From Blastopirellula sediminis (GTDB lineage Bacteria; Planctomycetota; Planctomycetia; Pirellulales; Pirellulaceae): a stretch of DNA of 64,000 nt. Both the position numbers and the translations under genes were made by a program. The stretch covers positions 1,266,720 through 1,330,719 of the forward strand of contig NZ_JAJKFT010000010.1 of NCBI RefSeq assembly GCF_020966755.1, in the 5' to 3' direction. Every line of letters starts with the position of its first letter. The first letter of the stretch is position 1. Of this stretch, positions 26,492 through 64,000 are shown piece by piece. Under the pieces are notes generated by a model, which saw only the letters and a program-made list of their open reading frames with translations, was not told the origin of the DNA and did no database searches.

Positions 26492-27916
26492 ATGCGGCGA
26501 CTTCAAGGCGGACATACTCTGCGTCTTCGGCGTCTCTACGTACGTCGCGAGGCTTCTGTTGAGTCGCTCGAAACTCGGGCGATGCTCGCCGCCGATCTGT
26601 TGCCGGAAGCGGAATTTGGTCCGCTGGAGGAGTCGAACGATTCATTGGCGCCCGCCCCGCGCCCTGCATATCAGCCTGGCTCGTTTTTGCTCGAAGGAGA
26701 ACAGGTCGACCCGCCGCCGGTTTTGCTTCACTTCGCCATCGTTACGAACCCGACCGAGTTTTCCGATCCTAATCTGGGAAGCGTAGAGCAGTTGCCCGAA
26801 AGCATGCTCCATACGCACGAGTGGGATCGTTACTACGTTGAAGTTTGGGTAGAAGCGGGCGATCAAGTCCGCGATCTGTCGGTCGACGTCAATTATCAGA
26901 CCCAAATCGCGACGCCGCGCAACGTGATGTTCGGTCCCGCATTCGCCGATGGTCACTTCTCGCTGGACGACGATCTGGGTCAGCTGCGCGACTTGGCGGC
27001 CCATGCCGAACCGCCGGCTCCGGTTGAAGGGGCGGAACCTCCGACCGGTCTCGTGCTGTTCGCGCGGATTGAATTTGGCGCCGACGGACCCCGCGACAAC
27101 GTCAGATTGGACTTTGCCAGCGGAACGGTCGGTCCTCATTCGCTCGAACTCGACATGATTCGTAGCGCCGGCATGACGGCCGAAGGAAATACGCTCGACG
27201 TCCACGCCGCCGAAAAACCCGAATTCGGCCTGGTACCGGTGATCTACGATTTGAACGACGATCAGTCGATTTCGCTGGTCGACTTGACGATGATGATTCG
27301 TTCGCTCGGCAGCGACGCCAGCGCTCCGAACGGTCAGGCGAGTTGGTACGCCGACGTCAACAAAGATTACGCCGTGTCGTTGATCGACATGAGCTACATG
27401 CTGCGGAACATCGGCAGCAACTACAGCAACGAAAAGATCGAGTTCCCCGCGAACTATCCCGAAGCCTGGATTCCCAAATCCGATGAAGGGGGCGGTAGCG
27501 GCGGAGTGGGTGGAACCGGCGGCAACGGTGGAGATGGTGGAGACGGTGGAGCGGAGGATCCGCCGCTACGTTTCGTGCCGATCGACGTCGGCGGCAACGC
27601 GCTCGCGCCTGATCCGGCGATGATTCTCGCGCTGCAAGCGCTGTTACAGATCGAAATCGTCTTCCCGGTTGGCTTCGACTTCACGTTGCTCCAGGGGAAC
27701 GTCTCCTATTCGGATAGCGACGGCGACGGCGACAAAGAGACGATGCTCGAGATCGAAGTCGACGATCAGCTCTTTGAGACCGAAATCGAAATTGAGATCA
27801 TGACCGAACTGATCGACACCGATCAGTTATGGGCCGATTGGTCTGGCGCCATCAGCAGCTACTTCGGCGAAGTGATCGCCGACCTCAAGGACCTGTTCCT
27901 CAACGAAGAGGAATAG
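26492..27916 (+). CDS. LEPR-XLL-type secreted protein with EWD domain and dockerin
   Basis: The protein has 474 residues. Near the N-terminus ESLETRAMLAADLL matches the LEPR-XLL motif, a planctomycete N-terminal signal. An LLEGE motif follows near residue 70. Residues about 95-235 form a beta-rich domain opened by EWDRYYVEVWVEAGD, equivalent to the EWD...VWV domain of the giant proteins at 43003-64000. Residues about 250-313 are a dockerin pair (DLNDDQSISLVDLTMMI and DVNKDYAVSLIDMSYML). A Gly-rich linker (about 331-352) leads to a C-terminal region with a DSDGDGD calcium-like loop and an acidic amphipathic end (SSYFGEVIADLKDLFLNEEE). It is the minimal member of the family; the shared SLAIQ...CWE tail of the giants is not present. 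Role unknown. Confidence 0.82.
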   Translation: MRRLQGGHTLRLRRLYVRREASVESLETRAMLAADLLPEAEFGPLEESNDSLAPAPRPAYQPGSFLLEGEQVDPPPVLLHFAIVTNPTEFSDPNLGSVEQLPESMLHTHEWDRYYVEVWVEAGDQVRDLSVDVNYQTQIATPRNVMFGPAFADGHFSLDDDLGQLRDLAAHAEPPAPVEGAEPPTGLVLFARIEFGADGPRDNVRLDFASGTVGPHSLELDMIRSAGMTAEGNTLDVHAAEKPEFGLVPVIYDLNDDQSISLVDLTMMIRSLGSDASAPNGQASWYADVNKDYAVSLIDMSYMLRNIGSNYSNEKIEFPANYPEAWIPKSDEGGGSGGVGGTGGNGGDGGDGGAEDPPLRFVPIDVGGNALAPDPAMILALQALLQIEIVFPVGFDFTLLQGNVSYSDSDGDGDKETMLEIEVDDQLFETEIEIEIMTELIDTDQLWADWSGAISSYFGEVIADLKDLFLNEEE

Positions 27917-29730: not shown

Positions 29731-29743
29731 CCGACGGCTGCGA

Positions 29744-41839: not shown

Positions 41840-41847
41840 TCCCTGCC

Positions 41848-48333: not shown

Positions 48334-48449
48334 AGAGAAACGGCAGTCCTGCGGTGGCGTATGAATCAGGGGAGTGGAATCAGGCACGCGTCGGAAGCTA
48401 CTTCAGATGGGAATTCGCTCCCCTCTGCAGCATTAGTAAAGATGGGTCG

Positions 48450-48455
48450 ATTGTA
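48450..48455 (-). promoter_or_regulatory. -10 element of giant gene A
   Basis: Minus-strand TACAAT lies 117 bp before the start. The same element is at 114 and 115 bp before giants B and C. No clear -35 is visible, so this is a candidate from conservation. Confidence 0.45.
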
Positions 48456-48518
48456 GCGGTTGCGACTGGCGGATACACGCGAGATTGGGGGGTAATGCCA
48501 GCTTTTCTCTGAAAATTC

Positions 48519-48528
48519 AACGCCCGCC
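48519..48528 (-). promoter_or_regulatory. GGCGGGCGTT element upstream of giant gene A
   Basis: Minus-strand GGCGGGCGTT, followed by a short A/T-rich tract, lies about 70 bp upstream of the -10 element. The same word at the same distance is found upstream of giant gene B (54672-54681). Confidence 0.35.
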
Positions 48529-48591
48529 AGAATCGGCCGGTTTCCGCTCCGGCGCAAACTGCAGCCGGAGGCTGGGAAAGGACGAAATCGC

Positions 48592-51500
48592 CTAGAAATC
48601 TTCGAGCCGGTTCTTCAGCCAACGAGCGGCCCGCTCAAGCCGCGGGTGCTCTTCTTCCAGTTCTTCCAACACGTCGATCGCCTTCTCGGCGAAGCATTCG
48701 ACGATCGAGGAAGCCTGCAGCGCCCAATCGGGAAGCTGCTCCGGCTGCCATGAACCGGTGGAGAAGGAAGCGGCCGCTTCGACCAGCTCTTCCTCCTCTG
48801 CGCCATCGGACGGAAACTCCCAACACTCTTCCAGCAAGCTGAGATTGCCGAACGCCGCGTCAACGTTGTGCTCGTCCGAGCTGGGAAGCGACAGCGGAAT
48901 CGCTTCTCCTTCCAACAGCACGCTGGCGGAAGTTTGAATCGCCAGCGATTCCGTTTCGACCAGCGGATTCGCCGGCGGAGAGGTTGGCGGCAACTGAATC
49001 GGAGTGCCGTTCGCCTGCGACGCGCCGATGTTCCGAATCAAATAGATCAAGTCGACGAGCGAAACGTAGCCGTCCCGATCGAAGTCATACTTGTACGCCC
49101 CAGGCACGTCGGCGACCGGATCGCCAATCTTGCCGATCAAGTAGGTCAAGTCCGTCAGACCGATCACGCCATCGTCATCGACGTCGTAGGGGACGACTTG
49201 CAGCTGGGTGGTTGGAGCGCCGACTTGTTGGCCAGGGACTACGCCGAACCAATTGGTCGTGATTTCAACGTCGGTTAGCGAGAACGACAGGGCAATCGGC
49301 TGAGGATAGTCGCCGGAAATATTGTTGGCAATCTGGGAGTTGGTATCGGGTTTGAATCGAAAGCTGCCGATGTGCAACAGTTCGCCAAGTTCGAAATCGG
49401 AGTTGTCGAAACCGCTGGCGTCGATTGCGATGATGTCGCCGCTAGTGTTGACGTCCAAGCTGGCGACGCCCCTGCTCGGAGAAAAATCCTCCAACCGAAA
49501 CTGCTCGTTATTAAAGTGGAGATTCATCGAGACGTTAGTTAATTGATCGATTCGCGGTTCATCACGACGCACCCAAACGTTGACAGTAAAGGAATCCCAT
49601 TCGGTAACGATTTCGAGGTCGGCGGGAAGCGCGTCGACCTCGCCGAATTGGTTGGTTTCGGGGCTAGACCCGTTGATGGTTAGATAGGCCTCCGCAGAAG
49701 GGATCGTTTGAATTGATATCGAATAGACGCCGCGTGCGCCATCGGAGTCGATCGCTGTGATTCTGGAGGCTATATCTCGTCTGGCGCCTTCCAGAATCGT
49801 ATAACTCCAATCCCAAGTGCCATCGCCGTGATCAATCAATTCTCCCAGCGATGCGGTGAGGGAGACAACGTCGGCGGATGTATCCGAATAGAAGCCGGAT
49901 GTCGTTACGGTGTCGCCAATTTTGGCGAAAAACTTGGCATTCTCCATTTGAACGACTGGCGGCGGATTCGTTACTTCCAGGATGAACGAAACTTGTCGCT
50001 GGTGCAATCCGTCGCTCGCCGTGATGACTACTTCGTGGTTCGTTGAAGGGCCAGTTGCCGGAGCGGCGTAGCTCCAGCGCCAGGTTCCGTCGCCATTGTC
50101 GATGATTTCGCCAAGCGAAGCGGAAAGGGAAACCGTTTCTCCCTTTAAGTCGCCAAACTCACCTCCGTTGACGGCGGTCTCTGAGAGATCAATCGTGCGT
50201 TCTACCAAGTCGACCGTAACGTACGGCGTTTGCGTGTCGATGTTACGCGAAGCGGTGGCGATCACGTTACGAGTATTTGTCACTTGCACGCTGATCGCCC
50301 AATCGTCCGGTAGCTCCAACTCGGAAAGGGGCAGCATGACATTCATCCCTACCGCATCATCGTACATCCCGTCGCCATCCAAATCCCAGGCGAATTGAAG
50401 ATCGGACACCGGATCTTGAAAATCGAACGATCCGTACGCGCTGAGGAGAAGGCTTTGCCCATCAGGGGATTGGCGTGGGTCGGCGATGCGAGCGACGGGG
50501 CCAGCAGTAAACTCAAGACGATGCGGTTCATAATTGGCGTCGCCGGTCTCGGTTCTGAAGATCAGTTGGTCGCCAAGTTGGGTGATCCACGTAAAGTTTG
50601 GACCGCCAGGGACGTCGGTTACACGAACGGTGCCTTCCGCGGTTCCATCGGTTAGCCACAATTGGAAACCATGATCTCGATCGAATCCGCGAAAGTAGGC
50701 TTTCCCGCTCACATCGACGAGTAGATCGAATATCGTCGAGGAGGTTGTCTCCGCTAGTCGCAGGACTTTGCTCGCGCCGTCAGGCTCACCGTTGGTTTTC
50801 CAAAGCTCCCACGGTTGATCGGTCCGGTAATAAAGCGCGTCGGCATAAGAGACGGTGAAGTAGACATCTCCTTGGAAACCGGCTTTTGGCTCGATCCTTG
50901 CGCGTTCGGTGAGGGTGATATCAGTCAGGCGAACGGCAAGGCCTGTGGCGGGATCAAACTTCCAGAGCTGGTCGCCATGTTCGGCGGTAGTCGCTTGGAA
51001 GTAGAGGGCGCCATCGATTGCGACAATTGCGTAGGGATCGGAAGACGCCTCTCCTGGGGCGATGTTCGCAACCAAGAACGTTCCTTCCACCGTACCATCG
51101 CTTCGCCAAAGTTCTCGTCCATTCGTGCCGTCACTCGCTGCGAAGTACAGGACGCCGTTCACTTCGGAAAGCGACCTGGGCCTTTCCGGAAGATCGGTTA
51201 ACGGGATTGTTCCGGTGGGAGTGCCGTCCGATTTCCAAAGCTGATAATCGTGGACCCCATCAGTTGCAGTAAAAAAGAGGGCGCCATTCGACGCGACAAG
51301 ATTCATGGGGATGGATGCGCCGAGCGGATTGATGTCGGCCACCATCGCAGTTCCGACGCTGGTACCGTCGCTTCGCCAAAGCTCTTCGCCCAAGAGACCA
51401 TCGCTGGCGTTAAAGAATACGGCGCCATTCAGTTCAGTTAGACTTTGAATCCTAGACGGAAGGCTGACGATCGGAACTGTTCCATCGGTCGTTCCATCCG

Positions 51501-54489
51501 ATGTCCAGAGCGTTCCAATCGAGTTTTGATATGTGGAGAAAAAAAGTGTTCCCTCAACGTTCAGGATGACGGTAAACAGAGGTCCGGTCTCTTTGATAAG
51601 AGCGGTTCCTTGCAGCGTACCGTCGGTTCGCCACAGTCCGAATCCAAAGTCGTCCGACGGCGCATTGAAATAGATATAGGCACCCAGTCGGATGAAGCCG
51701 GCGGGGTTCGAGCTATATGACGAGATAAGATCCGCGATCAAATCGACCTGCGGTTGGGGTACGACCGCCAGGGAAAACTCCGTTGTGCTGACGACGCCAT
51801 CCCCATCGCTCGCAGTAATTGTGACCGTCTGAGCGTCAGCGACCTGCACGTCGCCCAGCGACCAGAACCAGGTTCCATCGCCGTTGTCGACGACGGTTCC
51901 GACCGAGGCGCTTAGCGTGACGGGAACGCCGTCCTGATTGAGGAGGGCGCCTGAGTTGGACGCCGTCGATCCGGTGACGAAGTTCACCGAAGTAGCGTCA
52001 ACTTCCAACGCAGGCGGTGCAGGCTCGACTTTCAAATGAAATGCAGCACCAAAAAAAGCGCCAAGCTCATCGTAGACGTAGATCACGACCGTTTTGCTTC
52101 CGAGTGGAGCTTGCGAGGTGTCGTAGCTCCAGGTCCATGTCCCATCATCGCGGACAATAATTTCGCCGACCGAAGCGGTTCCGTGCACGACGTCAGCAGG
52201 AACGTCGCTATACGTTCCGCTATTGACTGCGAGCATACCATGGGACACGGTGACGCTGGTCTCCGCGACTGTTGGAACAGGGCCAACGTTGTTAACGCGC
52301 AGCTGAAAGCTGACGCTTGCGCTATGTTCGTCGGAACTGGCGGTGATGGTGACGGCTTGAGAATCGTCGGGACCATCTTCGGTCTGATAGCGCCAAGTCC
52401 ACGTACCGTCGCCATTGTCGACGACTTCGCCGATTGATGCGGAAAGCTGAATCTCGTTCCCGAGAATGTGGACCAGTCGTCCTGAGTAGACGGCGACTTC
52501 ACCTTCATTCACGCTTATGCCGTCATCGTCGTTGACGGAAATAAGCGGAACGTTCGGATCGATGACGAATGATCGGGTCGCGATGTTTCCATCCGTATCA
52601 ATGACGCGGAGCGAAATATTGGCCATACCAATCGTCGCCAGGTCGGCGATTGAAATTGATGCGTTCAATCCGCTGGCGTCGTCATAATTGCCATCGCCAT
52701 TAAGGTCCCAGTCGAACTGCAACTCACTTAAAGCGTCAAGAAAGTCAAACGTGCCAAGCGCACTGAGAATCACATTTTGCACGTCAGCGCTGATCTGAAT
52801 CGGCTGTAGACGGATTACTGGCGGCGTGTCGAGTTGAACGAAGAATGATTCACGACCAACCTGTTCAGTTTCTCCCTTGAAGAATAACGTACCGTTCGGA
52901 CCTGCGCTCGGCAGCCCCTCAATCGTTCCGGATTGAGTTACAAAACTGGTAATGCGCGTCGTTCCCTCGGGCGTACCGTCGGTGCGCCATCTTTGAAAAC
53001 CGTATGTGTCATCGTAGCCGCGAAAATAGACGGCGCCTTCTACGACGAGTAGCGGCAATGGGTAACTCTCGATCGTCGTTGGCGGGAATGAGGCTAATAG
53101 AATTTCCTCGCCAGTTGATTCGTCTAGTTTCCAAAGTTCGTCCGAAACGGGACCATAATAGGAATCTTTAATGAAATAGAGATCGTCGCCGATCCTCGCT
53201 TGGGCGACGAGTTGACTGCCGAAAACGCCAATCGCGCTAGTGATTGGTTGAGTACCGGATAGAGTTCCATCGCTGGTCCAAAGTTGGTTCGCAAAACTAA
53301 AGTAGAACTGACCGTCGACGACACGCAGACCGCCCGCGTCGGCTATGGGAAGAGCTCCTGCCGGCGTATTCACGTAGAGCTGCGTCGTTTCGCCGACGGT
53401 TCCGTTGGCCTTCCAAATGGTGTCGTCCGGCCCGAGAAAATAGACGACATTGCCGACGGCGGTTGGAAAGTACGGTCTTTGCGTCGATTCAGATGAGTAT
53501 AAGTCCGTGACCATCAGCGTTCCTTCCGCAGTGCCGTCAGTCCTCCACAACTCATTCCCATGAATGCCGTCATTGGCGACGAAAAACAATAAGTCATCGG
53601 TCGCTGTTAAGTCTCGGATTTCGGTTCCGGTCGAACCTGGAATAATATCGGCGACAAGATGAGTTCCCTCCGTCGTTCCATCGGAGACCCAAAGTTCTTG
53701 TCCGTGAATTCCGTCGTCCACGTTGAAATAGAGCAAGTTCCCTGCAACCGCGGACGCTACAGCGGAACCGGGGCGAAGGTTCGTTGTAAAATCGTAGATC
53801 AGAATCGCTTGGTCCGTCGTTTCGTCGTATTTCCAAAGATCGTAGCTTTGGTCGTCAAAGTAGTTTCTGCGCCTTAGAAAATAGAGTTCATCATTAAAAT
53901 CGACTAGTTCCACGATACCAGTGAACGTTGATTCGATGATCGTCGTCCCATCCGGGGTTCCATCCGTCTTCCAGAGCGTAACGGGAAAACTACTTGGATA
54001 GGTCGTGAAATAGCCCACCTCTCCAATCCAGACAATTGGCGAGATGTAATTGAAAACGTTCCCCGGTTCCGTATCCTTCAACAACTGAAACTCAACGCTC
54101 TCGACCGTCAGCTCAAACGTCGTCTCTACCGACGCGCCAGCGCCGTCATCCGCGGTGATCGTTACCGTTTGCGTGTCGCCTACCTGTACGTCTCCCAGCG
54201 TCCAGGTCCACGTGCCGTCGCCGTTGTCGACGACGGCGCCGACCGAGGCCGAGAGGTTGACCGCGTTGGCGAACGTGCCGCTGTTGGTGGCGGTGGAGCC
54301 AACCGCGTAGACCAGCGCGCTCGCGTCGGCGGCGATGGTTGGCGTCGGTTCTCCTTCCAGCAGGTCGGCTTGCGGCAGCAGGTCGGCGGCCAGCAGGTCG
54401 CGGACTTCCAGTTGTTCGGCTTGCAGAATGTAGGGGCGTCGACTGGGTCGAGCGTGGGCGCGATCACTGCGCACCGGATTCTTGCTCAT
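48592..54489 (-). CDS. Giant LEPR-XLL/ELWxxDGT/dockerin protein B
   Basis: The protein has 1965 residues. Its layout parallels protein A: EQLEVRDLLAADL near residue 25, LLEGEPTPT, six NGDGTW-type modules, ELWxxDGT repeat blocks (such as LWRSDGTVEGTFLV and LWKTDGTPDGTTII), and PKD-like segments. The EWDSFTVNVWVRR domain starts near residue 1628. The dockerin pair is at about 1765-1830 (DVDDDGVIGLTDL, DFDRDGYVSLVDL), then comes the shared tail (about 1840-1965). The start region MSKNPVRSDRA parallels A, and the 5' untranslated regions of A and B are also similar (TGCCGTTTC shortly before the ATG). The coding patch for SLAIQ...LLEGEA matches that of A at 78 of 80 bases. Confidence 0.85.
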   Translation of the reverse strand: MSKNPVRSDRAHARPSRRPYILQAEQLEVRDLLAADLLPQADLLEGEPTPTIAADASALVYAVGSTATNSGTFANAVNLSASVGAVVDNGDGTWTWTLGDVQVGDTQTVTITADDGAGASVETTFELTVESVEFQLLKDTEPGNVFNYISPIVWIGEVGYFTTYPSSFPVTLWKTDGTPDGTTIIESTFTGIVELVDFNDELYFLRRRNYFDDQSYDLWKYDETTDQAILIYDFTTNLRPGSAVASAVAGNLLYFNVDDGIHGQELWVSDGTTEGTHLVADIIPGSTGTEIRDLTATDDLLFFVANDGIHGNELWRTDGTAEGTLMVTDLYSSESTQRPYFPTAVGNVVYFLGPDDTIWKANGTVGETTQLYVNTPAGALPIADAGGLRVVDGQFYFSFANQLWTSDGTLSGTQPITSAIGVFGSQLVAQARIGDDLYFIKDSYYGPVSDELWKLDESTGEEILLASFPPTTIESYPLPLLVVEGAVYFRGYDDTYGFQRWRTDGTPEGTTRITSFVTQSGTIEGLPSAGPNGTLFFKGETEQVGRESFFVQLDTPPVIRLQPIQISADVQNVILSALGTFDFLDALSELQFDWDLNGDGNYDDASGLNASISIADLATIGMANISLRVIDTDGNIATRSFVIDPNVPLISVNDDDGISVNEGEVAVYSGRLVHILGNEIQLSASIGEVVDNGDGTWTWRYQTEDGPDDSQAVTITASSDEHSASVSFQLRVNNVGPVPTVAETSVTVSHGMLAVNSGTYSDVPADVVHGTASVGEIIVRDDGTWTWSYDTSQAPLGSKTVVIYVYDELGAFFGAAFHLKVEPAPPALEVDATSVNFVTGSTASNSGALLNQDGVPVTLSASVGTVVDNGDGTWFWSLGDVQVADAQTVTITASDGDGVVSTTEFSLAVVPQPQVDLIADLISSYSSNPAGFIRLGAYIYFNAPSDDFGFGLWRTDGTLQGTALIKETGPLFTVILNVEGTLFFSTYQNSIGTLWTSDGTTDGTVPIVSLPSRIQSLTELNGAVFFNASDGLLGEELWRSDGTSVGTAMVADINPLGASIPMNLVASNGALFFTATDGVHDYQLWKSDGTPTGTIPLTDLPERPRSLSEVNGVLYFAASDGTNGRELWRSDGTVEGTFLVANIAPGEASSDPYAIVAIDGALYFQATTAEHGDQLWKFDPATGLAVRLTDITLTERARIEPKAGFQGDVYFTVSYADALYYRTDQPWELWKTNGEPDGASKVLRLAETTSSTIFDLLVDVSGKAYFRGFDRDHGFQLWLTDGTAEGTVRVTDVPGGPNFTWITQLGDQLIFRTETGDANYEPHRLEFTAGPVARIADPRQSPDGQSLLLSAYGSFDFQDPVSDLQFAWDLDGDGMYDDAVGMNVMLPLSELELPDDWAISVQVTNTRNVIATASRNIDTQTPYVTVDLVERTIDLSETAVNGGEFGDLKGETVSLSASLGEIIDNGDGTWRWSYAAPATGPSTNHEVVITASDGLHQRQVSFILEVTNPPPVVQMENAKFFAKIGDTVTTSGFYSDTSADVVSLTASLGELIDHGDGTWDWSYTILEGARRDIASRITAIDSDGARGVYSISIQTIPSAEAYLTINGSSPETNQFGEVDALPADLEIVTEWDSFTVNVWVRRDEPRIDQLTNVSMNLHFNNEQFRLEDFSPSRGVASLDVNTSGDIIAIDASGFDNSDFELGELLHIGSFRFKPDTNSQIANNISGDYPQPIALSFSLTDVEITTNWFGVVPGQQVGAPTTQLQVVPYDVDDDGVIGLTDLTYLIGKIGDPVADVPGAYKYDFDRDGYVSLVDLIYLIRNIGASQANGTPIQLPPTSPPANPLVETESLAIQTSASVLLEGEAIPLSLPSSDEHNVDAAFGNLSLLEECWEFPSDGAEEEELVEAAASFSTGSWQPEQLPDWALQASSIVECFAEKAIDVLEELEEEHPRLERAARWLKNRLEDF

Positions 54490-54602
54490 GACGAAACGGC
54501 ATTCCGGCGGGGGAGACTAGGAACGGAGGAGTCGAATTAAGCTCGGAAATCAGCCGCCGGAGACGGGAAACGCATCCCTCTGTGGGGCCAGTGGATGGCC
54601 TG

Positions 54603-54608
54603 ATTGTA
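54603..54608 (-). promoter_or_regulatory. -10 element of giant gene B
   Basis: Minus-strand TACAAT lies 114 bp before the start, matching the position in giants A and C. Confidence 0.45.
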
Positions 54609-54671
54609 ATGCCTGGGAGGGATAGCGAAACGCAAGAATGCAGGCCCCCGGCCCCATTTCGGCAAAAAATT

Positions 54672-54681
54672 AACGCCCGCC
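54672..54681 (-). promoter_or_regulatory. GGCGGGCGTT element upstream of giant gene B
   Basis: Minus-strand GGCGGGCGTT precedes a run of A/T bases and lies about 70 bp upstream of the -10 element, as in gene A. Confidence 0.35.
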
Positions 54682-54755
54682 CTGTTCGCAAGAGGTGGGC
54701 GGGCGCATTTCGGGTGAGAAATCGCCATCGATTGGCGAGATTTTGACGGGAACGA

Positions 54756-57700
54756 CTAGAAGTTCCCGAAGTGGTGCTTCAGCCAATCGGCGGCGCGGCC
54801 CAGTTGCGGGTGCTCTTCTTCCAGGTCTTCGAGCAGCGAAATCGCCTTGTCGATCACGCATTCGACGATCGACGACGCTTCGATCGCCCACTCCGAGTCG
54901 AAGTCAGGCTGCCACGGGAAATCAGGAAGGGCGAATTCCGCTTCGATGTCGACTTCTTCTTCGTCGTCCGACGGCGACTCCCAACACTCTTGGAACAAGT
55001 TGAGATTGCCGAACGCGGCGTCGATGTTGTGCTCTTCGGAAACGGGGAGCGACAGCGGAAGCGCTTCTCCTTCCAAGAGAGAACTTGAGGTTGACTGGAT
55101 CGCCAGCGGTTCGGCTTCCAGCGAAGAGGAAATCGTTGGGAACTGAATCGGAACGCCGTTTCCTTGCGTTGCGCCGATGTTGCGAATCAAGTAGACCAGG
55201 TCGATCAACGAGACGAAGCCGTCGCGATCAAAGTCAAACGGGTACGACGCCGGCGTGGTGGCGACCGGATCTCCAATCTTGCCAATCAAGTAGGTCAAGT
55301 CGACCAGTCCAATCGCGCCGTCATCATCGATGTCGTACGGAATGACTTCAACTTGGGTGGTCGGCGAGCTGGACTGCACGCCGGGGATGTCGGTGTAGAG
55401 GAGCGTCGTCTGTTTCAGGTCAATGATCGAAAAGCCGAGATCGACCGGGTCGGCGTAAGCGCCTTGCGTCGTATTCGGCACGCCGCCATTGGGATTGGGG
55501 ATAAAGCGGAAGCTGCCGATCAAAAGGAAGTCGCCGTTGCCGCCGTTGAGGTCGGCGAAATTGCTCGCCGAAACTTCGATTTGGCCGCCAACATCGTTCA
55601 CCGTCATTTGACTGAAGCCGGCGCCGGACGCGGAACTGTCAAGCTGGAACCAGGCGTCATTGTAGCCAAGCGTATAGTCGATCGTTTGCAGCAGCGAACT
55701 GGTGGTCGGGTTGCGCTCGATCCAGACGTTGACGGTGAAGGGATCCCACTCGTTGATGGCGCCCAAATCGTCGGGCAACGTCGTGACGACGCCTGTTGCG
55801 TTGGTCGTCGCCGCCGCATCGTTAATCGTCAAATGGACCTGGACCGGGTAAACGGTGAAGAGCGATTCGTACAAGGTCATCGAATTGCCATTCACGTCGG
55901 TGATCGTAATGTCGACCGACTGGTAATCGTCTTCATTGATGCTGGTCTGATAGCTCCAGCTCCAAGTTCCGTCGCCGTTGTCGGTGATGTCGCCGAGCGT
56001 CGCCGTGATCGAAAGGATGTCGGCCGAACCGACCGTGTACGTGCCGAACTTCGTCGCAAGTTCCCCTTTCAAGGCGAACTCCGGCGATTGCGGGTCGGTC
56101 TCGATTACCGGATCGGCGTAGAGGACGGTCAGATCAAACGAGAGCTGCGACACTTGCACGCCGTTGTCGAAGTCGATCGTGACGGCGGTCGTGCCGATAT
56201 CGTCCGCATCGGGAACGTAGTTCCAAGTCCAGGTTCCGTCTCCATTGTCGATCACGTCGCCAAGCGACGGGGTGAAGACGATCGTGCGACCGAAGGCGTC
56301 AAAGTATTTGCCGCCGTTAACCGCGAGATCTCCATCGGACACGGTGAGGGCGGCGTCGTCGAGCGTCAGATTGACTTCGTCGGCGCTGAACGTCATCGTT
56401 GCGAAGCTGGAGTTTGCGTCGAGGTCGGTGACCTTCACGCTGACGTCCCAAGAGCTGATGAAGGTCTGATCAGCCAACAAGACGGTGGGATTGAAGCCGG
56501 CGGCGTCGTCGTATTGTCCGTCCCCATCCAGATCCCACTCGAAGGTCAAATCGGCGACGGCGTCTTTGAAGTCGTACGAGCCGAGGGCGCTTAGCTCAAT
56601 CGAGAGGCCGCTATTGGTCGTTTTCGGCAACTGAATCATCGCGATCGGCGCGGCGTCGATATTCAGCACGCGCGGCTCGAACCCGCTGGTCGTATCCTTG
56701 GCGATGAAGAGCAGGTTATCGCCAAGAAACGTCAGGCCGAAAGGAAACGAGTCCCCTTCCATCGGCGTCAGATCAGTGATGCGCACCGTGCCTTCCGCCG
56801 TGCCGTCGGTCTTCCAAAGTTCGAGACCGTGGTCGACATCGTAGCCGGTGAAGAAGAGGGCGTCGCCGTAGACCGCATACGGCAAGTCTTGGAACGTGAA
56901 CAAGAGGGGGCTGAGCCCTGTTACCAGTTCAGGACTGGAGTTGACGTCGGTCGCTTTCCAAAGCTCGAACAGGTCGCCGTTATAGAGGCTGAAGTAGATG
57001 TCCCCTTGAAAGACGAGCAGCGGCTCGGTGGCGCCGATGCCAAAGTTTTCCGCCGTGATCGCGACGGTTCCGCCCAGGGTTCCGTCCGACTTCCAGATAT
57101 CGCCGGTGGTGTTGGAAAAATAGAGCGTGCCGTCGATGTTGCGCAGGCCGTTGTAGTCGGCGCCATTTACGCCGGGGACCAGTTCAAAGGCGAGCGTCGT
57201 CCCCATCTCGGTACCGTCGGTCATCCAGAGCTCTTCGCCATGCATGGCGTCACTGGCAGAGAAGTAGAGCGCTCCGCCGAAGTCGGTCAGATAGGAGGGG
57301 TCTGCCAGGCCTGTCCCGATCCGAAATGTTCCCTCGTCCGTTCCGTCGGTTCTCCACAGCTGCACGCTGGAAAGCTGCTGATCGTAAAGCTGGAAGTAAA
57401 GGAGATTGCCGGAGGGGGTCAGTTCGGCGATCAACGGGGAAGTCTCGACCGTCGTTAAATCTTTGACCAGCATCGTTCCCTGAGCGGTCCCGTCGGTCTT
57501 CCAGATTTCGGTCGAGGAAAAGCCGTCGCCGCTCGTGAAGTAGACTGTATTGCCGACGGCGACCGGATCGAACGAAACCAAGTCGAAGAAGTTCTGAAAG
57601 CTGGTCAGCTGGACTGTCCCTTGAGCCGTACCATCGGTCGCGTAGAGTTCGTAACTAGATCCGTTCAAGCTACCTTCGAAGTAGAGGAGATTGCCGAACG

Positions 57701-58067
57701 TTTGCAGCGAGCGAATATCGGCGAATGCCGGAAAGCCGACCACCTGTTCGGTGCCGGCCGTGGTGCCGTCGGTCTGCCACAGGCTATAGAAATTGGAGTC
57801 GTCGATACCGGCGAAGTAGGCGACGCCGTTCAGTTCGGCGTAGCCCAAAGATATGAACGAGAAGATGTCGCTGGGATCGCTGCCGGGGTAGACGTCGACC
57901 AGCAGATAATCGGCGACCGCCGGCTCGGCTTCGAGGAGACTTGACTCGATCATCAGATCGGAAGCCAGCGGGGTGCGTATCTCGAGTAGTTCGGTGCAGC
58001 AGGTTCGCAGGCGACGGCGACGAGAGGAGGAAGGAGCGAGGTCAAGGCGCAGTGACTTAGTGCTCAT
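54756..58067 (-). CDS. Giant LEPR-XLL/ELWxxDGT/dockerin protein C
   Basis: The protein has 1103 residues and is the shortest of the four giants. The N-terminal motif is a weaker LEPR-XLL variant (ELLEIRTPLASDL), followed by SSLLEAEPAV. One large ELWxxDGT block (LWRTDGTDEGTFRI, LWMTDGTEMGTTLA and others) precedes a PKD-like segment and two NGDGTWxW modules. The EWDPFTVNVWIER domain starts near residue 772. The dockerin pair is at about 909-970 (DIDDDGAIGLVDL, DFDRDGFVSLIDL). The shared tail follows, with a long acidic patch (SPSDDEEEVDIEAEF). The ATG at 58067 gives MSTKSLRLDL; the longer in-frame start at 58151 adds sequence not shared with A or B. Confidence 0.82.
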   Translation of the reverse strand: MSTKSLRLDLAPSSSRRRRLRTCCTELLEIRTPLASDLMIESSLLEAEPAVADYLLVDVYPGSDPSDIFSFISLGYAELNGVAYFAGIDDSNFYSLWQTDGTTAGTEQVVGFPAFADIRSLQTFGNLLYFEGSLNGSSYELYATDGTAQGTVQLTSFQNFFDLVSFDPVAVGNTVYFTSGDGFSSTEIWKTDGTAQGTMLVKDLTTVETSPLIAELTPSGNLLYFQLYDQQLSSVQLWRTDGTDEGTFRIGTGLADPSYLTDFGGALYFSASDAMHGEELWMTDGTEMGTTLAFELVPGVNGADYNGLRNIDGTLYFSNTTGDIWKSDGTLGGTVAITAENFGIGATEPLLVFQGDIYFSLYNGDLFELWKATDVNSSPELVTGLSPLLFTFQDLPYAVYGDALFFTGYDVDHGLELWKTDGTAEGTVRITDLTPMEGDSFPFGLTFLGDNLLFIAKDTTSGFEPRVLNIDAAPIAMIQLPKTTNSGLSIELSALGSYDFKDAVADLTFEWDLDGDGQYDDAAGFNPTVLLADQTFISSWDVSVKVTDLDANSSFATMTFSADEVNLTLDDAALTVSDGDLAVNGGKYFDAFGRTIVFTPSLGDVIDNGDGTWTWNYVPDADDIGTTAVTIDFDNGVQVSQLSFDLTVLYADPVIETDPQSPEFALKGELATKFGTYTVGSADILSITATLGDITDNGDGTWSWSYQTSINEDDYQSVDITITDVNGNSMTLYESLFTVYPVQVHLTINDAAATTNATGVVTTLPDDLGAINEWDPFTVNVWIERNPTTSSLLQTIDYTLGYNDAWFQLDSSASGAGFSQMTVNDVGGQIEVSASNFADLNGGNGDFLLIGSFRFIPNPNGGVPNTTQGAYADPVDLGFSIIDLKQTTLLYTDIPGVQSSSPTTQVEVIPYDIDDDGAIGLVDLTYLIGKIGDPVATTPASYPFDFDRDGFVSLIDLVYLIRNIGATQGNGVPIQFPTISSSLEAEPLAIQSTSSSLLEGEALPLSLPVSEEHNIDAAFGNLNLFQECWESPSDDEEEVDIEAEFALPDFPWQPDFDSEWAIEASSIVECVIDKAISLLEDLEEEHPQLGRAADWLKHHFGNF

Positions 58068-58181
58068 GTCGATTCGGCGTGTTTTGGGTTGATTGGCGAG
58101 GGGGAGAAGATCAAACCAGCCCGCGTGCAAACTGCCGTGATCGGGGAGCAAGATCGTCGGCAGTATCGATAAGGTGGCGCG

Positions 58182-58187
58182 ATTGTA
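58182..58187 (-). promoter_or_regulatory. -10 element of giant gene C
   Basis: Minus-strand TACAAT is embedded in TTACAATCGCGC, 115 bp before the start. The GCGC context is also seen after the -10 elements of paralogues 1 and 2. Confidence 0.45.
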
Positions 58188-58269
58188 ACGCGCGTCGCCG
58201 AGCGAAGGGACAGCAGAAACGGAGGGTTTCCGACATTTCCCGGAAAAGCAAGAACGCGCGGCTCGACTG

Positions 58270-58284
58270 TTTCACGCCGTGAAA
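58270..58284. repeat. 15-bp inverted repeat between giants C and D
   Basis: TTTCAC-GCC-GTGAAA is a perfect 6-bp-arm palindrome in the spacer between two genes. It has no T-run, so it may be an operator-like site rather than a terminator. Confidence 0.35.
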
Positions 58285-58337
58285 CGCCGTCTAAGAGCGG
58301 ATTCGCCTCTAGCCAGATAGGGGGCTCGCGTGCCGTA

Positions 58338-61300
58338 CTAGTCGGCGTCTGGCCACTGGTCGAGCCAATGGATCAGCCGACCAATGCGCGGACAATCGTC
58401 TTCCACTTCTTCCAGGAGCGAAATCGCTTTTTCTACGACCGACGCATACTTCGCCGACTCTTGCAGCGCCCAATCGGGAAGGTGCGGCGAACTCCAAGCG
58501 GCGAGTTCCGAGGAGATCCGCTCCAGCAGCGGTTGCTCCACGTCGTCGTCAGTCGGCAACTCCCAGCACTCGGCCTCGAGTGCGAGATTGCCGAACGCCG
58601 CGTCGATGTTGCCGGCGTCATCCGACTGCGGGAGCGCAGGCGGGGGAAGAATCGCTTCGCCTTCCAGCAGGGTCGACGTCGATTGGATCGCAAGCGATTC
58701 GCTTTCTAGCGGAGCCGGAGGCGGTGGCGGCGGCAGAACTACGCCATCTCCATTGCTGGCGTTGCCGCCGATGTTGCGAACGAAATAGGCCAGATCGATC
58801 AGCGTCACAAAGCCGTCGTGATCGAAGTCGTAGCGATAGACGCTAGGGTTGGAATCGACGCTATTCCCAATTCCGCGAAGGAAATAGGTCAGATCGATCA
58901 AGGTGATGTAGCTGTCGTCGTCGACGTCGTAGGGGACGACTTGCATCTGGGTTGTGGGGAAGCCTGCCTGAATGCCGGGAACGTCGCCATAGACGTCAAA
59001 CGACAATTCGAAGTCGGTGGCGGTGAACTCGAGATCGGAGACAGGCTCGGGATAAGAGCCGTCGGCGTTATTGGAAAGACCGCCTTGGGGATTCGGTTGG
59101 AATCGAAAACTACCGACCAGGAAGTACGCCTCTTTTCCGACGACGCCCGACGCCAATTGAGCGGCGGTGATCGCCAACGCGTCGCCGTTGTTCTGAACGG
59201 TCAATACTCCGACGCCGCTGCTCGCCGAGTAGTCAGCCAACTGAAACCAAGTGCTGTTGAAGTTCAGGTTCAGCGAGACTCCCGTAACGTCATGAACGTA
59301 CTGCTCGTCGTAGCGAACCCAGACGTCGACGGTAAAGTCTTCCCATTCGTGAATCGATTCCAAGTCGTCTGGAAGAACGTCGACTTCGCCGGCCGCGTCA
59401 GTGACGGCCCCGTTATCGCTTGTCGTCAAAAAAGTCTCGATTTCTGGCAAAACGGTCAGCGTGAACGTCACTTCGTCCGATCCTCCGTTACCATCTTCGG
59501 CCCGGATCAAGACTTCCCGACTGCCAGTAGGCTGAACGCCGGCCAGCGACCAGGTCCATGTGCCGTCGAGATTGTCGACGACGGTTCCTTCCGACGCCGT
59601 GAAGGCAAGGATGTCGTTGCCGGGATCATGATAAGTGCCGGTGACTTTGGCGGTTGATCCGAGCGAAGCGTACGGCGTCGAGTGATCGGCCGCAATCGTC
59701 GGCGGCAGGTTGTTGATCGTCAGCTCAATGGTGACGGTCGACTCGCCGCCGTCGGGATCGGTGGCGGTGATCGTGACCGTTTGCGGGCCGGCCAAGCCGT
59801 CGATCGCATCGTAGGTCCATAACCACTTGCCCGTCGCCTCGTATTGCGCGATCGTGCCGATGTTGGCGACTAACGTAACCACATCGTCGCCGGGGTCTCG
59901 GAACGTGCCGCCAATGGAGACAAATCCACCTTGGTCGACGGTAAGCGTCGTCGCATTTGCATGGACGACCGGGGCCAGGTTTTCGACGACAATCGTCTGA
60001 CGAACTTCCCGCGTCATCCCAACTTCCGCACTGGCGGTCAGTACGATTTCGTAGCTGCCTTCGTCTGCAGGAGTAAATTGAAGGTCGAACAGTTCGCTAT
60101 CTTCGATGCGGATTAGCGGCGTCGAATCGCCGTCTTTGAAAACGAAGTAGCGGAAGGTGAAGGGATCGGCAGGGTTGACCGACTCGGTCGTGCCGCTCAT
60201 CACTTCGATCGGGGTTCCTTCCTGTCGCGGAACGCTGATCGATTCGAGGATCGGCGTTGGCGCCGCGGTGATCATGCGGACCGTCGTCGCCGCATCGCGG
60301 AAGAACCCGAAGTTGTCGGTCAGGCGAACGAAAATCTCGTACGTATTGCGGGGAGCGAGCCCAAGGTCGGCGAGGGTTTGTGCTGTGATTGTCGGCGACA
60401 TGCCGGTCGCGTCGTCAAACTGGCCGTCGCCATCCAAGTCCCAGGTATAGCTGACGATCGTGTCTCCCTCGGCAGGAGGCGCAGCCATCAGGGGAAGATC
60501 GCTTTCGTCGTCGATCACGTAAGGACCGCCGGCGTCGGAGAAGAAGCGGAATCGCTGTGAGTAGATCCCCTGGCCATTTCCGTCTTGGTCGTGACTGGTC
60601 CAAACGACGACGACGTTTCCGGCTTCGTCGAGCGCGACTTCGGGAAATTCCTGCGTCCCGGGAACGTAGGTATTGATCTGAAATTCGCCGCCGATCTTCG
60701 TGCCGTCCGCGGCGTAGCGCTGACCGAAGATGCCGTAGCCGTCGCCGTCTTGATTTTCGCTTTGCCAAACGATGACGAAGTTGCCTGCGTTGTCGATCGA
60801 GACGGAAGGGTAGGATTGGTTATCCAAAATGCGGGTACTTACGTGGAACTCGTCCCCAACCGGCGTTCCGTCGGCGGCGTATCGCCTGGCATAAATTCCG
60901 CTGAGATGGCCATCTTGCCCAACGCTAAGCCAGGTGACGACGTACGATCCGTCCGCCGCCATCGCGACGGATGGTACTGCTTGAGGGTCATCGAGGTATG
61001 TGTTGACATGGAATTCGTCGCCAATCGTTGAACCGTCGGCGGCGAACAGTTGACCGTAAACCCCAGAGAATTTGGCGTTGGGTTCGTAACCGGTCCAGGT
61101 GATGACAAAGTTGCCCGGGGCATTCATCGTTGCGCTGGGGGAGACTTGACTACCGAAAGTCGACGTATGGACGCGGAATTCTCCGCCGAGCTTAGAACCG
61201 TCGGCGGCGAAACGTTGGGCGTAAACTCCGTTATTATTACCATCTTGTTCATAGCTATCCCAAGCGATCACGAAGGCGCCGCTGGCGTCCATGGCGATCG

Positions 61301-64000
61301 TCGGGCGCTGCTGCGAGTGGCTTGTATAGGTATTGACCAGGAATTCCTCGCCAAGCGCGATCCCGTCCGCCGAAAAACGTCGCGCGTAGACGTTACTCGA
61401 ACGGTACCAGGCGACTGCGAAGTTTCCCGCGGCGTCAAACGCGATGGTCGGAGTCAGTTGGTAACCCGTGGTATACGAGTTGACTTGAATCTCTCCGCCG
61501 ATCTTCGTCCCATCCGCGGCGAATCGTTGTGCGTAGATCCCTTCCGCGGAGCCGTCTTGTAGGTCGCTGGCCCAGACGACGATGTATTCTCCCGAGTCTT
61601 TGATCGCGATCGCCGGCGTATTTTGGTCATGTTGAGTCGTCGTATTAACGATAGATTCTTCGCCGAGAAAGCGGGGGATATCGACTGAGAAGTGGAAGAC
61701 GAAATCTCCGCCGTCGAGCCCGTCTTGGTCGCCGTCCAGGCGGCGTCCCGCCAAATCGGTAGCGCTGTCGAAGAGGGTAAGCGTGAACTGGCCGTAGTTG
61801 ACCAGTCCGTCCAGCAGCAATTCGACGATCGTGCCTCGGCTGTTGGAATCGGTCGTGATCTGGATTACCCGCGAAGTGACGTCGACGCCGTCGAGTTCGA
61901 GACGCCAGTGAGCGAAGTCCGTGATGGCGGCATAGCCGCTGGTCGCCAATATTTCGCTGAACTGAAGCGATATCCGATCGACGCGATCGCTGACCGCGCC
62001 ATGATCGGCGATTGATTCTTCCCCGGCGTAAACCGAGACGACCTGCGGCGGCGAAGTTGAGAAACGCTGGGCGAAGATATATTCCAACTCGGTGAAGGGG
62101 TCGCTGCTAACCCAGCCGATGACAAAGCTTCCCTGATCGTTGATCGCCACCGCCGGATCAAACTGTTCGTAGACGGTGGTCGTGTTTACGAAGAATTCGT
62201 CGCCATCCTTCGTCCCATCCGCGGCGAAACGCTGCGCGAAAATGCCGGAACCGCTGCCATCTTGCATGTCGCTGCCCCAAGTGACGACGAATCGACCATC
62301 TCCGGTCATCGAAACGTTGGGGGCCGTTTGATCGGATGTTGCGTACGAGCTGACGACGAAAGCGTCGCCAATCGGAACTCCCGCCGCCGAGTATCGTTGT
62401 CCGAAGATATCGTTGGCGTAGGTATCTGGCGTGTCTTCAGCCCAGACGAGGACGTAGTTCCCCTCGTCATCCAAGGCGACGGACGGTTCGTCGCTTACCG
62501 TATAGGTACTGAAGAGCACCGCATCTCCAGCTGGAGTTCCATCAGCGGCGAATCGACGAACGTAGAGGCCGACGCTGTTTGCGTAATAGACGTCAAATTC
62601 GCCTTGGTTATTGAGCGCGATTGTCATTACCTGCGTCGATGTTGTAGTAGCGATGGCGATCGGATCGCCAATCGCTACGCCATCGGACGAAAATCGCTGC
62701 GCAAATACTCCTCGCTCTTGGTAGCTCTTGCCATAGCCGCTCCAGGCGATGACAAAATTACCAGCGTCATCCATCGCCGCGACAGGTTTGATATTGTTTG
62801 TGGTGACGTATGGATTGACCGAAATCTTGTCTCCAATTTTCTCGCCATCTGCGTTGTAGCGTTGAGCAAAGGGCGCCCCGCCGAGCCCGATCCGCCAGAC
62901 AATCACATAATTTCCGTCGCTGTTGATCGCCACCGACGGTTCAAACTGTCCCATCTCGGCAGGATCGACCTGGAACTCACTTCCCGCCCACGTGATCAAA
63001 TCAACCACAATCGTCTGGCGAACTTCATCGCTCCCGCCATCTTCGTCGCTGACCGTCAGCACGACGTCATAGAAACCGATTTCGGTCGGCGTGAACTGGA
63101 ATGTGGTTAGATCGACGCCCGATCCGCTGAACTCTGGGGTCGCCTCCCCGTGTTTGTAGATGGCGTAGTTGTAGGTCAACGTATCGAGCGACCCGGCCGG
63201 ATCGCTCGCGCTGGCGGAGAGGTCGATTGGGCGGTCGACGGGATAGGCGTAATCGAGCGGATCAAGCGTCGCGGTCGGATCGACGTTGTTGACGACCAGC
63301 TCAAACGTGAACGTTGAGATCGCGCCGAAGGAATCTTGGGCGGTAATCGTCACGATGGTTCCGGCGCTCGGACCGTCCGCCACGGGGTACGTCCAGCTCC
63401 ATGTGCCGGCTTGCACGTTCTGCATGATCTGACCGATGTCGGCAGACAACGTCACTTCGTTTCCTTCGGGATCGCTGAACGAGCCGCTATTGGCGGCGGT
63501 CGACCCTTCGTCAGCGGTGACGACTGCGCTGTCGATCGTCACGTCGGGGGGGAGATTGTCGATCGAGACAGACGCGACGCCGTACGAGATGGCGCCTGCC
63601 TGGTTGGTGACCTTCAGTCCGATTTGCAGTTCCTGTGGAGTGTTGAGCGTTAGCGTCGGCATAACGCCGACCGCATCGTCGTATTGGCCGTCCCCGTCCA
63701 GGTCCCATTCGAACGTCAGATCGCCAATCACGTCGACGTCGTCAGTCGTTCCGCTGGCGTCCAGTTGAATGGTTGTGCCAGGCGTCGCAGCGTAGGGGCC
63801 CCCGGCGTCGACATTCGGCCCAGATCGCAGCGCATACAGGCCGCGCGGATTGCCGCTAACCGAGGCGGCGAAGACGACGCCATTGGATAGGGATGCGAGC
63901 CCGACTGGAGTCCCAATGGTTTGAAAGGTGCTGGTCTGTATTTGAAACGTGCCGCTGGCCGTTCCATCGGTCGTCCAAAGCGAGTTGCCTCCTGAAAAGA
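58338..64000 (-). CDS. Giant dockerin protein D with IYAQRF-type repeats, truncated at window end
   Basis: The minus-strand frame is open to the right edge, giving at least 1886 residues; the N-terminus lies outside. The visible part starts with an ELWxxDGT unit (LWTTDGTASGTFQI) and a PKD-like segment (DLTFEWDLDGDGQYDDA). Residues about 336-1150 hold about 13 repeats of roughly 50 residues, such as IYAQRFAADGTKIGGE and GNFVIVWQSENQDGDG. Three NGDGTW-like modules follow. The domain with EWEDFTVDVWVRY starts near 1549, the dockerin pair is at about 1688-1750 (DVDDDSYITLIDL, DFDHDGFVTLIDL) and the shared tail is at about 1763-1886. It differs from A-C in the repeat block and in a Pro-rich LPPPPPP linker before the tail. 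Confidence 0.82.
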   Translation of the reverse strand, partial: FSGGNSLWTTDGTASGTFQIQTSTFQTIGTPVGLASLSNGVVFAASVSGNPRGLYALRSGPNVDAGGPYAATPGTTIQLDASGTTDDVDVIGDLTFEWDLDGDGQYDDAVGVMPTLTLNTPQELQIGLKVTNQAGAISYGVASVSIDNLPPDVTIDSAVVTADEGSTAANSGSFSDPEGNEVTLSADIGQIMQNVQAGTWSWTYPVADGPSAGTIVTITAQDSFGAISTFTFELVVNNVDPTATLDPLDYAYPVDRPIDLSASASDPAGSLDTLTYNYAIYKHGEATPEFSGSGVDLTTFQFTPTEIGFYDVVLTVSDEDGGSDEVRQTIVVDLITWAGSEFQVDPAEMGQFEPSVAINSDGNYVIVWRIGLGGAPFAQRYNADGEKIGDKISVNPYVTTNNIKPVAAMDDAGNFVIAWSGYGKSYQERGVFAQRFSSDGVAIGDPIAIATTTSTQVMTIALNNQGEFDVYYANSVGLYVRRFAADGTPAGDAVLFSTYTVSDEPSVALDDEGNYVLVWAEDTPDTYANDIFGQRYSAAGVPIGDAFVVSSYATSDQTAPNVSMTGDGRFVVTWGSDMQDGSGSGIFAQRFAADGTKDGDEFFVNTTTVYEQFDPAVAINDQGSFVIGWVSSDPFTELEYIFAQRFSTSPPQVVSVYAGEESIADHGAVSDRVDRISLQFSEILATSGYAAITDFAHWRLELDGVDVTSRVIQITTDSNSRGTIVELLLDGLVNYGQFTLTLFDSATDLAGRRLDGDQDGLDGGDFVFHFSVDIPRFLGEESIVNTTTQHDQNTPAIAIKDSGEYIVVWASDLQDGSAEGIYAQRFAADGTKIGGEIQVNSYTTGYQLTPTIAFDAAGNFAVAWYRSSNVYARRFSADGIALGEEFLVNTYTSHSQQRPTIAMDASGAFVIAWDSYEQDGNNNGVYAQRFAADGSKLGGEFRVHTSTFGSQVSPSATMNAPGNFVITWTGYEPNAKFSGVYGQLFAADGSTIGDEFHVNTYLDDPQAVPSVAMAADGSYVVTWLSVGQDGHLSGIYARRYAADGTPVGDEFHVSTRILDNQSYPSVSIDNAGNFVIVWQSENQDGDGYGIFGQRYAADGTKIGGEFQINTYVPGTQEFPEVALDEAGNVVVVWTSHDQDGNGQGIYSQRFRFFSDAGGPYVIDDESDLPLMAAPPAEGDTIVSYTWDLDGDGQFDDATGMSPTITAQTLADLGLAPRNTYEIFVRLTDNFGFFRDAATTVRMITAAPTPILESISVPRQEGTPIEVMSGTTESVNPADPFTFRYFVFKDGDSTPLIRIEDSELFDLQFTPADEGSYEIVLTASAEVGMTREVRQTIVVENLAPVVHANATTLTVDQGGFVSIGGTFRDPGDDVVTLVANIGTIAQYEATGKWLWTYDAIDGLAGPQTVTITATDPDGGESTVTIELTINNLPPTIAADHSTPYASLGSTAKVTGTYHDPGNDILAFTASEGTVVDNLDGTWTWSLAGVQPTGSREVLIRAEDGNGGSDEVTFTLTVLPEIETFLTTSDNGAVTDAAGEVDVLPDDLESIHEWEDFTVDVWVRYDEQYVHDVTGVSLNLNFNSTWFQLADYSASSGVGVLTVQNNGDALAITAAQLASGVVGKEAYFLVGSFRFQPNPQGGLSNNADGSYPEPVSDLEFTATDFELSFDVYGDVPGIQAGFPTTQMQVVPYDVDDDSYITLIDLTYFLRGIGNSVDSNPSVYRYDFDHDGFVTLIDLAYFVRNIGGNASNGDGVVLPPPPPPAPLESESLAIQSTSTLLEGEAILPPPALPQSDDAGNIDAAFGNLALEAECWELPTDDDVEQPLLERISSELAAWSSPHLPDWALQESAKYASVVEKAISLLEEVEDDCPRIGRLIHWLDQWPDAD

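Follow-up and report, generated by a model that had tools for sequence, protein, structure and literature searches.

A cohesin-like domain joined to a dockerin as a putative docking tail of large exported proteins in Planctomycetota

Five proteins encoded in a 64,000-nucleotide stretch of the Blastopirellula sediminis genome (the window) share a domain with a conserved EWD motif, each time followed by a dockerin. On the strength of its predicted fold, of matches to the Pfam model Cohesin and of comparisons between cohesin profiles, the assignment of this unnamed EWD domain to the cohesin superfamily as a divergent branch is well supported. The domain is hardly ever found without a dockerin. 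The divergent cohesin, fixed to its dockerin, probably forms a rigid, calcium-dependent docking tail with one partner per species, by which adhesin-like cargo would be attached to the cell surface or matrix.

Results

Four of the five window genes, A to D, lie in tandem on the minus strand; the fifth, at 26492..27916, is on the plus strand. The positions of the domain and dockerin dyads are as follows, with PF00404 scores given for the whole protein and for the genome search.

26723..27235, plus strand: EWD cohesin-like domain of the 26492..27916 protein (residues 78-248 of 474)
27245..27409, plus strand: dockerin pair of the 26492 protein (residues 252-306; PF00404 29.9 and 34.4 bits)
43003..63998, minus strand: tandem array of the four genes A-D, each dyad near the C-terminus
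43603..44103, minus strand: EWD domain of protein A (43003..48387), residues 1429-1595
43438..43599, minus strand: dockerin pair of protein A (PF00404 22.2 and 27.6 bits)
49192..49692, minus strand: EWD domain of protein B (48592..54489), residues 1600-1766, structure predicted
49027..49188, minus strand: dockerin pair of protein B (PF00404 18.7 and 23.7 bits), folded jointly with the EWD domain
55341..55841, minus strand: EWD domain of protein C (54756..58151), residues 771-937, matched by a planctomycete cohesin profile at E 0.0066
55176..55337, minus strand: dockerin pair of protein C (PF00404 18.2 and 23.5 bits)
58935..59438, minus strand: EWD domain of protein D (58338 to beyond the window end)
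58785..58931, minus strand: dockerin pair of protein D (PF00404 17.5 and 24.2 bits)

The complete open frame of protein D, which crosses the window edge, is 2386 aa. ELWxxDGT repeats occur in A-C and cadherin/Big-type repeats in A-D, while modules of a cellulosome scaffoldin (several cohesins, a carbohydrate-binding module, an anchoring module) were found in none of the five window proteins; in both scans D is represented by its in-window part. The array is a local expansion: next to the same genes there are four copies here, two in genome G001, one in G003, and in G002 a single short frame that retains one dockerin half. On a Blastopirellula marina scaffold (loci L018 and L220) the array gene is reduced to an open frame of 343 aa that includes one half of the dockerin; the copy seems to be decaying. 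Orthologues of the 26492 protein, 69-71% identical to it, are present in G001, G002 and G003.

Several further features of these proteins were observed. Behind the dockerin, A-D have in common an acidic, helical-looking C-terminal tail (...NxDAAFGNLxLxxECWE...LPDWALQxS...; approximate positions 43003-43330, 48592-48920, 54756-55080 and 58338-58670), and similar tails follow other copies of the domain in the genus. A short LLEGE-like motif, possibly a processing or attachment signal, recurs near the N-terminus of dyad proteins, just behind their dockerin, or at both places. It occurs nine times in six of eight dyad proteins checked out of the ten in the genome (those of the window and others, including the 657-aa protein at L096:13173-15146), against an expectation of 0.007-0.05 per protein after shuffling; the motif was picked after it had been noticed. 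Near the array, 36682-38289 encodes a 535-aa protein that we take to be a signal peptidase I with extra sequence; it is present here and in G001 and had no match in the examined stretches of G002 and G003.

An earlier note on this DNA had described a motif common to the five proteins, and all five instances are indeed present at the named genes. Run literally, as LP-x(5-11)-EW[DE]-x(3-4)-V-x-VW[VI], the pattern matches four of them; protein A departs by one residue, with Ala for the first Val (EWDSLTANVWI). The length of about 140 residues proposed for the domain fits the distance from EW to the dockerin but falls short of the 167-171 residues between the first strand and the dockerin. The dockerin pair was rightly placed straight after the domain in all five proteins: PF00404 scores above its cut-off in every one of them in the genome search, and in the whole-protein hmmscan for the 26492 protein alone (29.9 against 22.9 bits; A-D 17.5-22.2).

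Homology among the copies of the domain is far beyond chance. Searching the genome with the profile returns A-D, its own seeds, at E-values from 2.0e-84 to 7.5e-81, and two further proteins that were not seeds at 5.0e-65 and 6.0e-63. Identity to the domain of B is 38-45% for the domains of A, C and D and 19% for the 26492 domain. Since the latter has pairwise matches at E<=1e-3 to 17 of the 32 other family members, and a profile of A-D matches its N-terminal part (E=4.9e-5), it is a divergent member of the same family.

The beta-sandwich with a cohesin-like character that the earlier note had read into the sequence is upheld by the predicted fold and by similarity at the profile level. AlphaFold2, given the five window sequences, predicts with good confidence nine strands of at least eight residues; the dockerin is unresolved in that model. 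Comparison with the PDB by Foldseek (probability 1.00, E 8.3e-7) returns cohesins or cohesin-bearing scaffoldin chains, classed by title and chain length, in the first 26 rows, at 5-13% identity. A strong hit to an already named domain would, by the same note, count against its reading, and on this point the outcome is mixed. The domain regions of the window copies match no Pfam or NCBIfam model at E<=1, whereas the family as a whole resembles a divergent branch of Cohesin (PF00963). Six of 33 family members match PF00963 at E<=1, the best at 6.1e-6; individual members among the 33 are also hit by a few unrelated models, one of them at 5.7e-5. The PF00963 cut-off of 24.1 bits is exceeded by two members when the genomes are searched (24.3 and 26.8 bits), and the same two stay below it in the whole-protein hmmscan (18.8 and 21.7). 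The sole PF00963 match above cut-off in the B. sediminis genome is one of its ten EWD domains, and there is none at E<=0.01 in the three other genomes of the genus. A relaxed search of the B. sediminis genome for a separate receptor yielded two weak matches (E 0.195 and 0.523).

Profile comparisons agree with this placement. In a single hhalign comparison, the 33 EWD domains match an alignment of 11 planctomycete cohesins, independent in that none of them is among the EWD hits of the 60 relatives, at 92.6% probability and E 4.6e-7. Used as a profile, this cohesin alignment, built without the EWD family, ranks EWD domains, protein C included, as the seven best of 12 matches in the four genomes of the genus. 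Two sequence profiles run against PDB chains gave weak matches, with no cohesin and no X-module among them. The Glu-Trp pair is invariant in 158 of 158 dyads, a figure open to some bias as the members were gathered with a profile containing it. It sits in a 27-residue stretch between strands 1 and 2, which is longer than is typical of known cohesins.

The association of the domain with the dockerin is nearly complete. A total of 180 distinct hits remained after removal of exact duplicates, of which 162 were kept (E<1e-10, at least 95 model positions) and 18 weaker or shorter ones dropped. A strict EF-type loop pair stands directly behind the domain in 142 of the 162; another 15 have a loop pair with altered loop residues, recognised by eye, which brings the dockerin pair to 157 of 159 uncut members. 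The others comprise one half-dockerin (B. marina), one stop ten residues on at a contig edge, and three cut sequences. The junction is strict as well: the first loop Asp lies at an identical distance in all 120 alignments that run through to the model's last position, and among the 22 others of the 142, which stop early, offsets run from -3 to +8, ten of them having the common value. Across the 157 of 158 dyads in which both halves could be aligned, Asp occupies EF-loop positions 1 and 12 of the first half in 157/157 cases each, and of the second half in 100% and 97%. Hundreds of residues may come after the dyad.

A joint structure model of the protein B dyad, with 35 dyads as the alignment, has three dockerin helices and reaches a pLDDT of 92.0 and a pTM of 0.89. 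These values argue for one defined arrangement of the two modules, and the model points to domain and dockerin packing without a linker as a unit, in the manner of XDoc dyads. The domain has the cohesin fold in this prediction as well. Over their whole length the two modules are best matched by 3kcp and 4fl4, X-module structures of Clostridium thermocellum CipA; the module order is alike, but the arrangement is not (rmsd 21-24 A), and the leading module of the EWD dyad has a predicted cohesin fold. In a coupling analysis of 158 dyads, the strongest pairs (z up to 13.7) link positions that correspond between one half of the dockerin and the other. For pairs that join the cohesin-like domain to the part that follows it, z does not exceed 5.3 and no clear face emerges, and we draw no support for an interface from it.

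The dockerins of the dyads differ from the common type, since a model made from 20 ordinary planctomycete dockerins of genera lacking the EWD domain recognises only 8 of 117 stretches that follow an EWD domain at E<=1 (five of the 117 are cut by the locus end). As a separate observation, a second cohesin-like domain with the signature GS[TS]YxVE[VI]W is present at loci L053, L057-L060, L062, L071, L080 and L081, and also at L065. It lies mostly upstream of the dyad (downstream in L058) and matches the EWD family profile weakly.

In both dockerin halves, each lineage has its own set of similar residues near loop position 10 and in the helix after it, and these sets differ from one lineage to the next. 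The commonest strings are SL[IV]DL in Blastopirellula, N[FY][RK]DL in Gimesia, DFGD[FL] in SKKK-type genomes, G[LI]ADF in genus g58, GLTDL in G022 and GF[GS]DL in G047; a few loops are misplaced in this tally and lineages were assigned by hand, and identities taken from model columns lead to the same outcome. In cellulosomal dockerins, positions 10-11 and 17-18 serve in recognition. The similarity does not follow that of the neighbouring domains: among dyads whose cohesin-like domains are less than 30% identical, the dockerin faces are 0.41-0.69 identical within lineages against 0.22-0.26 across them, in five of the five lineages that have such pairs.

Blastopirellula: dockerin identity 0.46 within, 0.23 across (79 pairs within)
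g58: 0.47 within, 0.25 across (119 pairs within)
Gimesia: 0.46 within, 0.22 across (8 pairs within)
G022: 0.41 within, 0.26 across (5 pairs within)
G047: 0.69 within, 0.26 across (2 pairs within)

The comparison covers 93 dyads under 70% identity, the pairs are not independent of one another, and the SKKK group has no pairs below 30%. The two halves of one dockerin obey the same pattern: first and second half are 0.578 identical within one protein, 0.458 between proteins of a lineage and 0.241 across lineages. Because proteins with such dissimilar cohesin-like domains share a dockerin code, a common partner is suggested, and one shared partner per lineage is the simplest reading of these sequences. 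The code could alternatively have arisen by recombination among dockerins.

The B. sediminis genome (7.05 Mb) contains ten copies of the domain by family profiles: besides the five of the window, contig C2 has two, in open frames 8262 and 3881 aa long, and a further three lie at C10:3.79-3.82 Mb. Nine of its 14 PF00404 matches lie directly behind EWD domains, and the dockerin of the tenth EWD domain falls below the PF00404 threshold. The other five dockerins have no EWD domain; four are of the ordinary type and one is of the dyad type (C4:690118, in a 3625-aa frame). Dockerins occur in 45 of 60 relatives in Planctomycetota and the EWD domain in seven of the 60. Among 392 sampled genomes of the phylum, with at most nine candidates per genome scored, at least 16 genomes from three genera have the domain. 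In named records, 41 of 42 pattern matches were confirmed with a relative-centred profile, all in Planctomycetota lineages that include Gimesia and Blastopirellula. A pattern scan of genome contigs with the four window domains alone gave 22 stretches, none of them confirmed, and plasmid records contained no match to the protein B dyad.

A cluster at C10:3.785-3.842 Mb holds three dyad proteins and dockerin-only proteins around a set of secretion genes (for short SecA, GAF-HlyD and PqqD-M50-HlyD proteins), together with two beta-barrel porin-like proteins.

G000:C10:3804612-3812233 (L096): short SecA, GAF-HlyD and PqqD-M50-HlyD genes, flanked by genes for dyad and dockerin-only proteins

The locus possibly exports the proteins that flank it. 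One of its dyad proteins has a distinctive pair of properties. In Blastopirellula the three copies that score highest with the independent cohesin profile (25.4, 22.5 and 18.6 bits, ranks 1-3 of 24) are, by place and length, orthologues of one protein, and no other dockerins of the lineage conform to its code as poorly as theirs (0.18-0.26; all others 0.42-0.58). The G022 orthologue ranks first of four at 37.6 bits, with a code fit of 0.18 against 0.57-0.61. The four g58 orthologues rank 1, 4, 5 and 12 of 21, with code fits of 0.33-0.45 against 0.43-0.56 for the others; ranks 2 and 3 there, above three of the four orthologues, are proteins with normal dockerins. A cyclophilin domain is found in all six orthologues scanned out of nine, and a thioredoxin match below cut-off in five of the six, with none listed for the G022 one. 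A matrixin match at or just below cut-off lies at the C-terminus of the G022 orthologue and of three from g58. In Pfam searches the dockerins of the orthologues are above cut-off in G022 and B. marina, below it in B. sediminis and unlisted at E<=0.1 in three of three from g58. By analogy with scaffoldins, this pattern is suggestive of the cyclophilin protein (C10:3800386-3803919 in B. sediminis) as the best candidate receptor, carrying a different plug of its own. The pattern is absent in Gimesia: there, the domains that score high as cohesins are followed by normal dockerins. A general rule by which a more cohesin-like domain has a worse dockerin was rejected: over 158 dyads, some with misplaced loops, the correlation is weakly positive (Spearman 0.17), and a high cohesin score with an off-code dockerin is limited to orthologues of one protein in three lineages.

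Discussion

The docking-tail reading supposes that a cohesin-like domain was turned into the fixed partner module of a dockerin, so that the dyad would act as one rigid docking tail, placed at the C-terminus or close to it in large exported proteins of some Planctomycetota. Stiffened by the cohesin-like module in the manner of XDoc, the dockerin may plug with calcium into a partner common to the dyad proteins of a species. Cargo of adhesin-like character, with cadherin-type repeats and ELWxxDGT arrays, would thereby be attached to the cell surface or matrix. No cohesin outside the EWD family rises above chance level in the four genomes of the genus, and an X-module role therefore needs a member of the EWD family as receptor. 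The partner would most likely be a cohesin-like domain of this family, with the cyclophilin protein beside the secondary SecA/HlyD locus as the best candidate. A same-code dockerin without the domain in the B. sediminis genome (C4:690118) speaks against the docking tail, as do the A-D dockerin scores under the Pfam cut-off in the whole-protein scan, the varying junction offsets of the 22 alignments that stop early, and the candidate-receptor pattern, missing in Gimesia and imperfect in g58.

That the EWD domains are the only cohesin-like domains above chance in the genus would equally suit a self-assembling system, in which each domain is an active cohesin that binds the dockerins of its neighbours, and head-to-tail polymers build a surface mesh. 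The predicted fold matches cohesins that bind dockerins, and the dockerins keep their calcium loops and near-symmetric halves. We nevertheless regard such polymers as unlikely. Within the B. sediminis genome, identity to the domain of B drops to 15-23% (the 26492 protein and the three at C10:3.79-3.82 Mb), yet most dockerins share one code. Strands 3, 5, 6 and 8, numbered by their order in the model and presumably equivalent to the dockerin-binding sheet of known cohesins, moreover belong to the more variable strands (entropy 2.43-3.02); variability is lowest in strands 2 and 7 (1.61).

A more elaborate form of the docking tail, which we hold to be quite doubtful, would be a surface assembly system specific to planctomycetes. 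The exported thioredoxin-cyclophilin protein encoded next to the secondary SecA/HlyD locus would be its receptor, taking up the coded dockerins of the other dyad proteins in its cohesin-like domain and coupling help in the folding of giant adhesins with their attachment at the export exit under a lineage-private code.

The neighbourhood of the secretion genes could also mean that the dyad is an export or anchoring signal for the secondary SecA/HlyD/M50 machinery, with no docking plug. Three EWD genes surround the SecA/HlyD locus in eight of eight genomes of the genus and g58, as placed by the coordinates of the SecA gene in G000-G003 and of the PqqD-M50-HlyD gene in four g58 genomes, and on the SecA contig of G022 one copy is clear and a second is weak. 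A tie between domain and locus throughout the phylum is rejected by their distributions. The short SecA protein is matched in 60 of 60 relatives, the weaker matches (frames of about 1230-1300 aa) looking like housekeeping SecA, against seven of 60 for the domain; the PqqD-M50-HlyD protein is found in 98 of 392 genomes, against at least 16 of 392. Among the genes listed for Gimesia, no domain gene lies within 200 kb of a PqqD-M50-HlyD gene. With hundreds of residues able to follow the dyad as a further objection, a sorting signal is very unlikely.

Most improbable of all is a calcium-stabilised structural end of long repeat proteins that has no partner: the modelled packing of domain and dockerin into one unit, the failure to find a partner and the existence of dockerin-only and code-deviant copies agree with it, but such a cap would need no lineage-specific surface that recurs in each half of the dockerin and is common to unrelated cargo.

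The docking tail has parallels in known systems. Like Cohesin, including the non-cellulosomal representatives of Archaeoglobus fulgidus (2xdh) and Clostridium perfringens (2jh2), the EWD domain is predicted to be a nine-stranded sandwich, with cohesins as its top Foldseek matches and similarity at the profile level. It differs in the lack of a PF00963 match to the window copies at E<=1, in the Glu-Trp-bearing stretch between strands 1 and 2 and in the dockerin that follows without a linker. The XDoc dyads of Ruminococcus flavefaciens CttA and ScaB, as presented in the accessible part of PMC5934362, likewise have a beta module directly before the dockerin, and the EWD dyad is one unit by prediction.

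The earlier note had seen the presence of both modules in one chain as a departure from the cellulosome pattern. It is not one, as primary and adaptor scaffoldins carry both cohesin and dockerin, according to the accessible text of PMC11557425. A planctomycete adaptor with cohesin and dockerin was proposed in 2019 as part of a hypothetical 'planctosome' (PMC6461901, accessible text). Both have cohesin and dockerin in one exported chain, as here, and the planctosome is also planctomycete and without a link to cellulose. In that portion of the source, however, it is a model for peptidases of Nemodlikiaceae in which a hyaline repeat domain separates the dockerin from the cohesin, whereas the EWD domain forms a fixed dyad on adhesin-like giants of other lineages. 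Cohesin and dockerin in one chain are thus already known from scaffoldins; an unnamed cohesin branch as a fixed dyad with a dockerin is probably new. The accessible portions of PMC6461901, PMC5934362, PMC9012536 and PMC11557425 contain no description of the EWD domain that we could find, and prior notice by Peer et al. (2009; non-cellulosomal cohesins) is possible.

A secondary SecA/HlyD-type secretion gene set of Planctomycetes is known from PMC4452313, and the same kinds of gene (SecA_DEAD, HlyD, M50), as given in the accessible part of that work, stand among three EWD genes of the B. sediminis genome. Dockerins and cohesins, unlike here, have zero occurrences in its main text, and the broader biological role of the locus is, in the words of its describers there, 'completely unknown'.

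A new profile would label the EWD domain, which the Pfam and NCBIfam models do not find in the window copies. Should the docking view be true, it suggests cargo for the secretion locus described in the accessible part of PMC4452313. For the partners of non-cellulosomal dockerins in Planctomycetota, the lineage code and one candidate receptor reduce the question to a few pull-downs.
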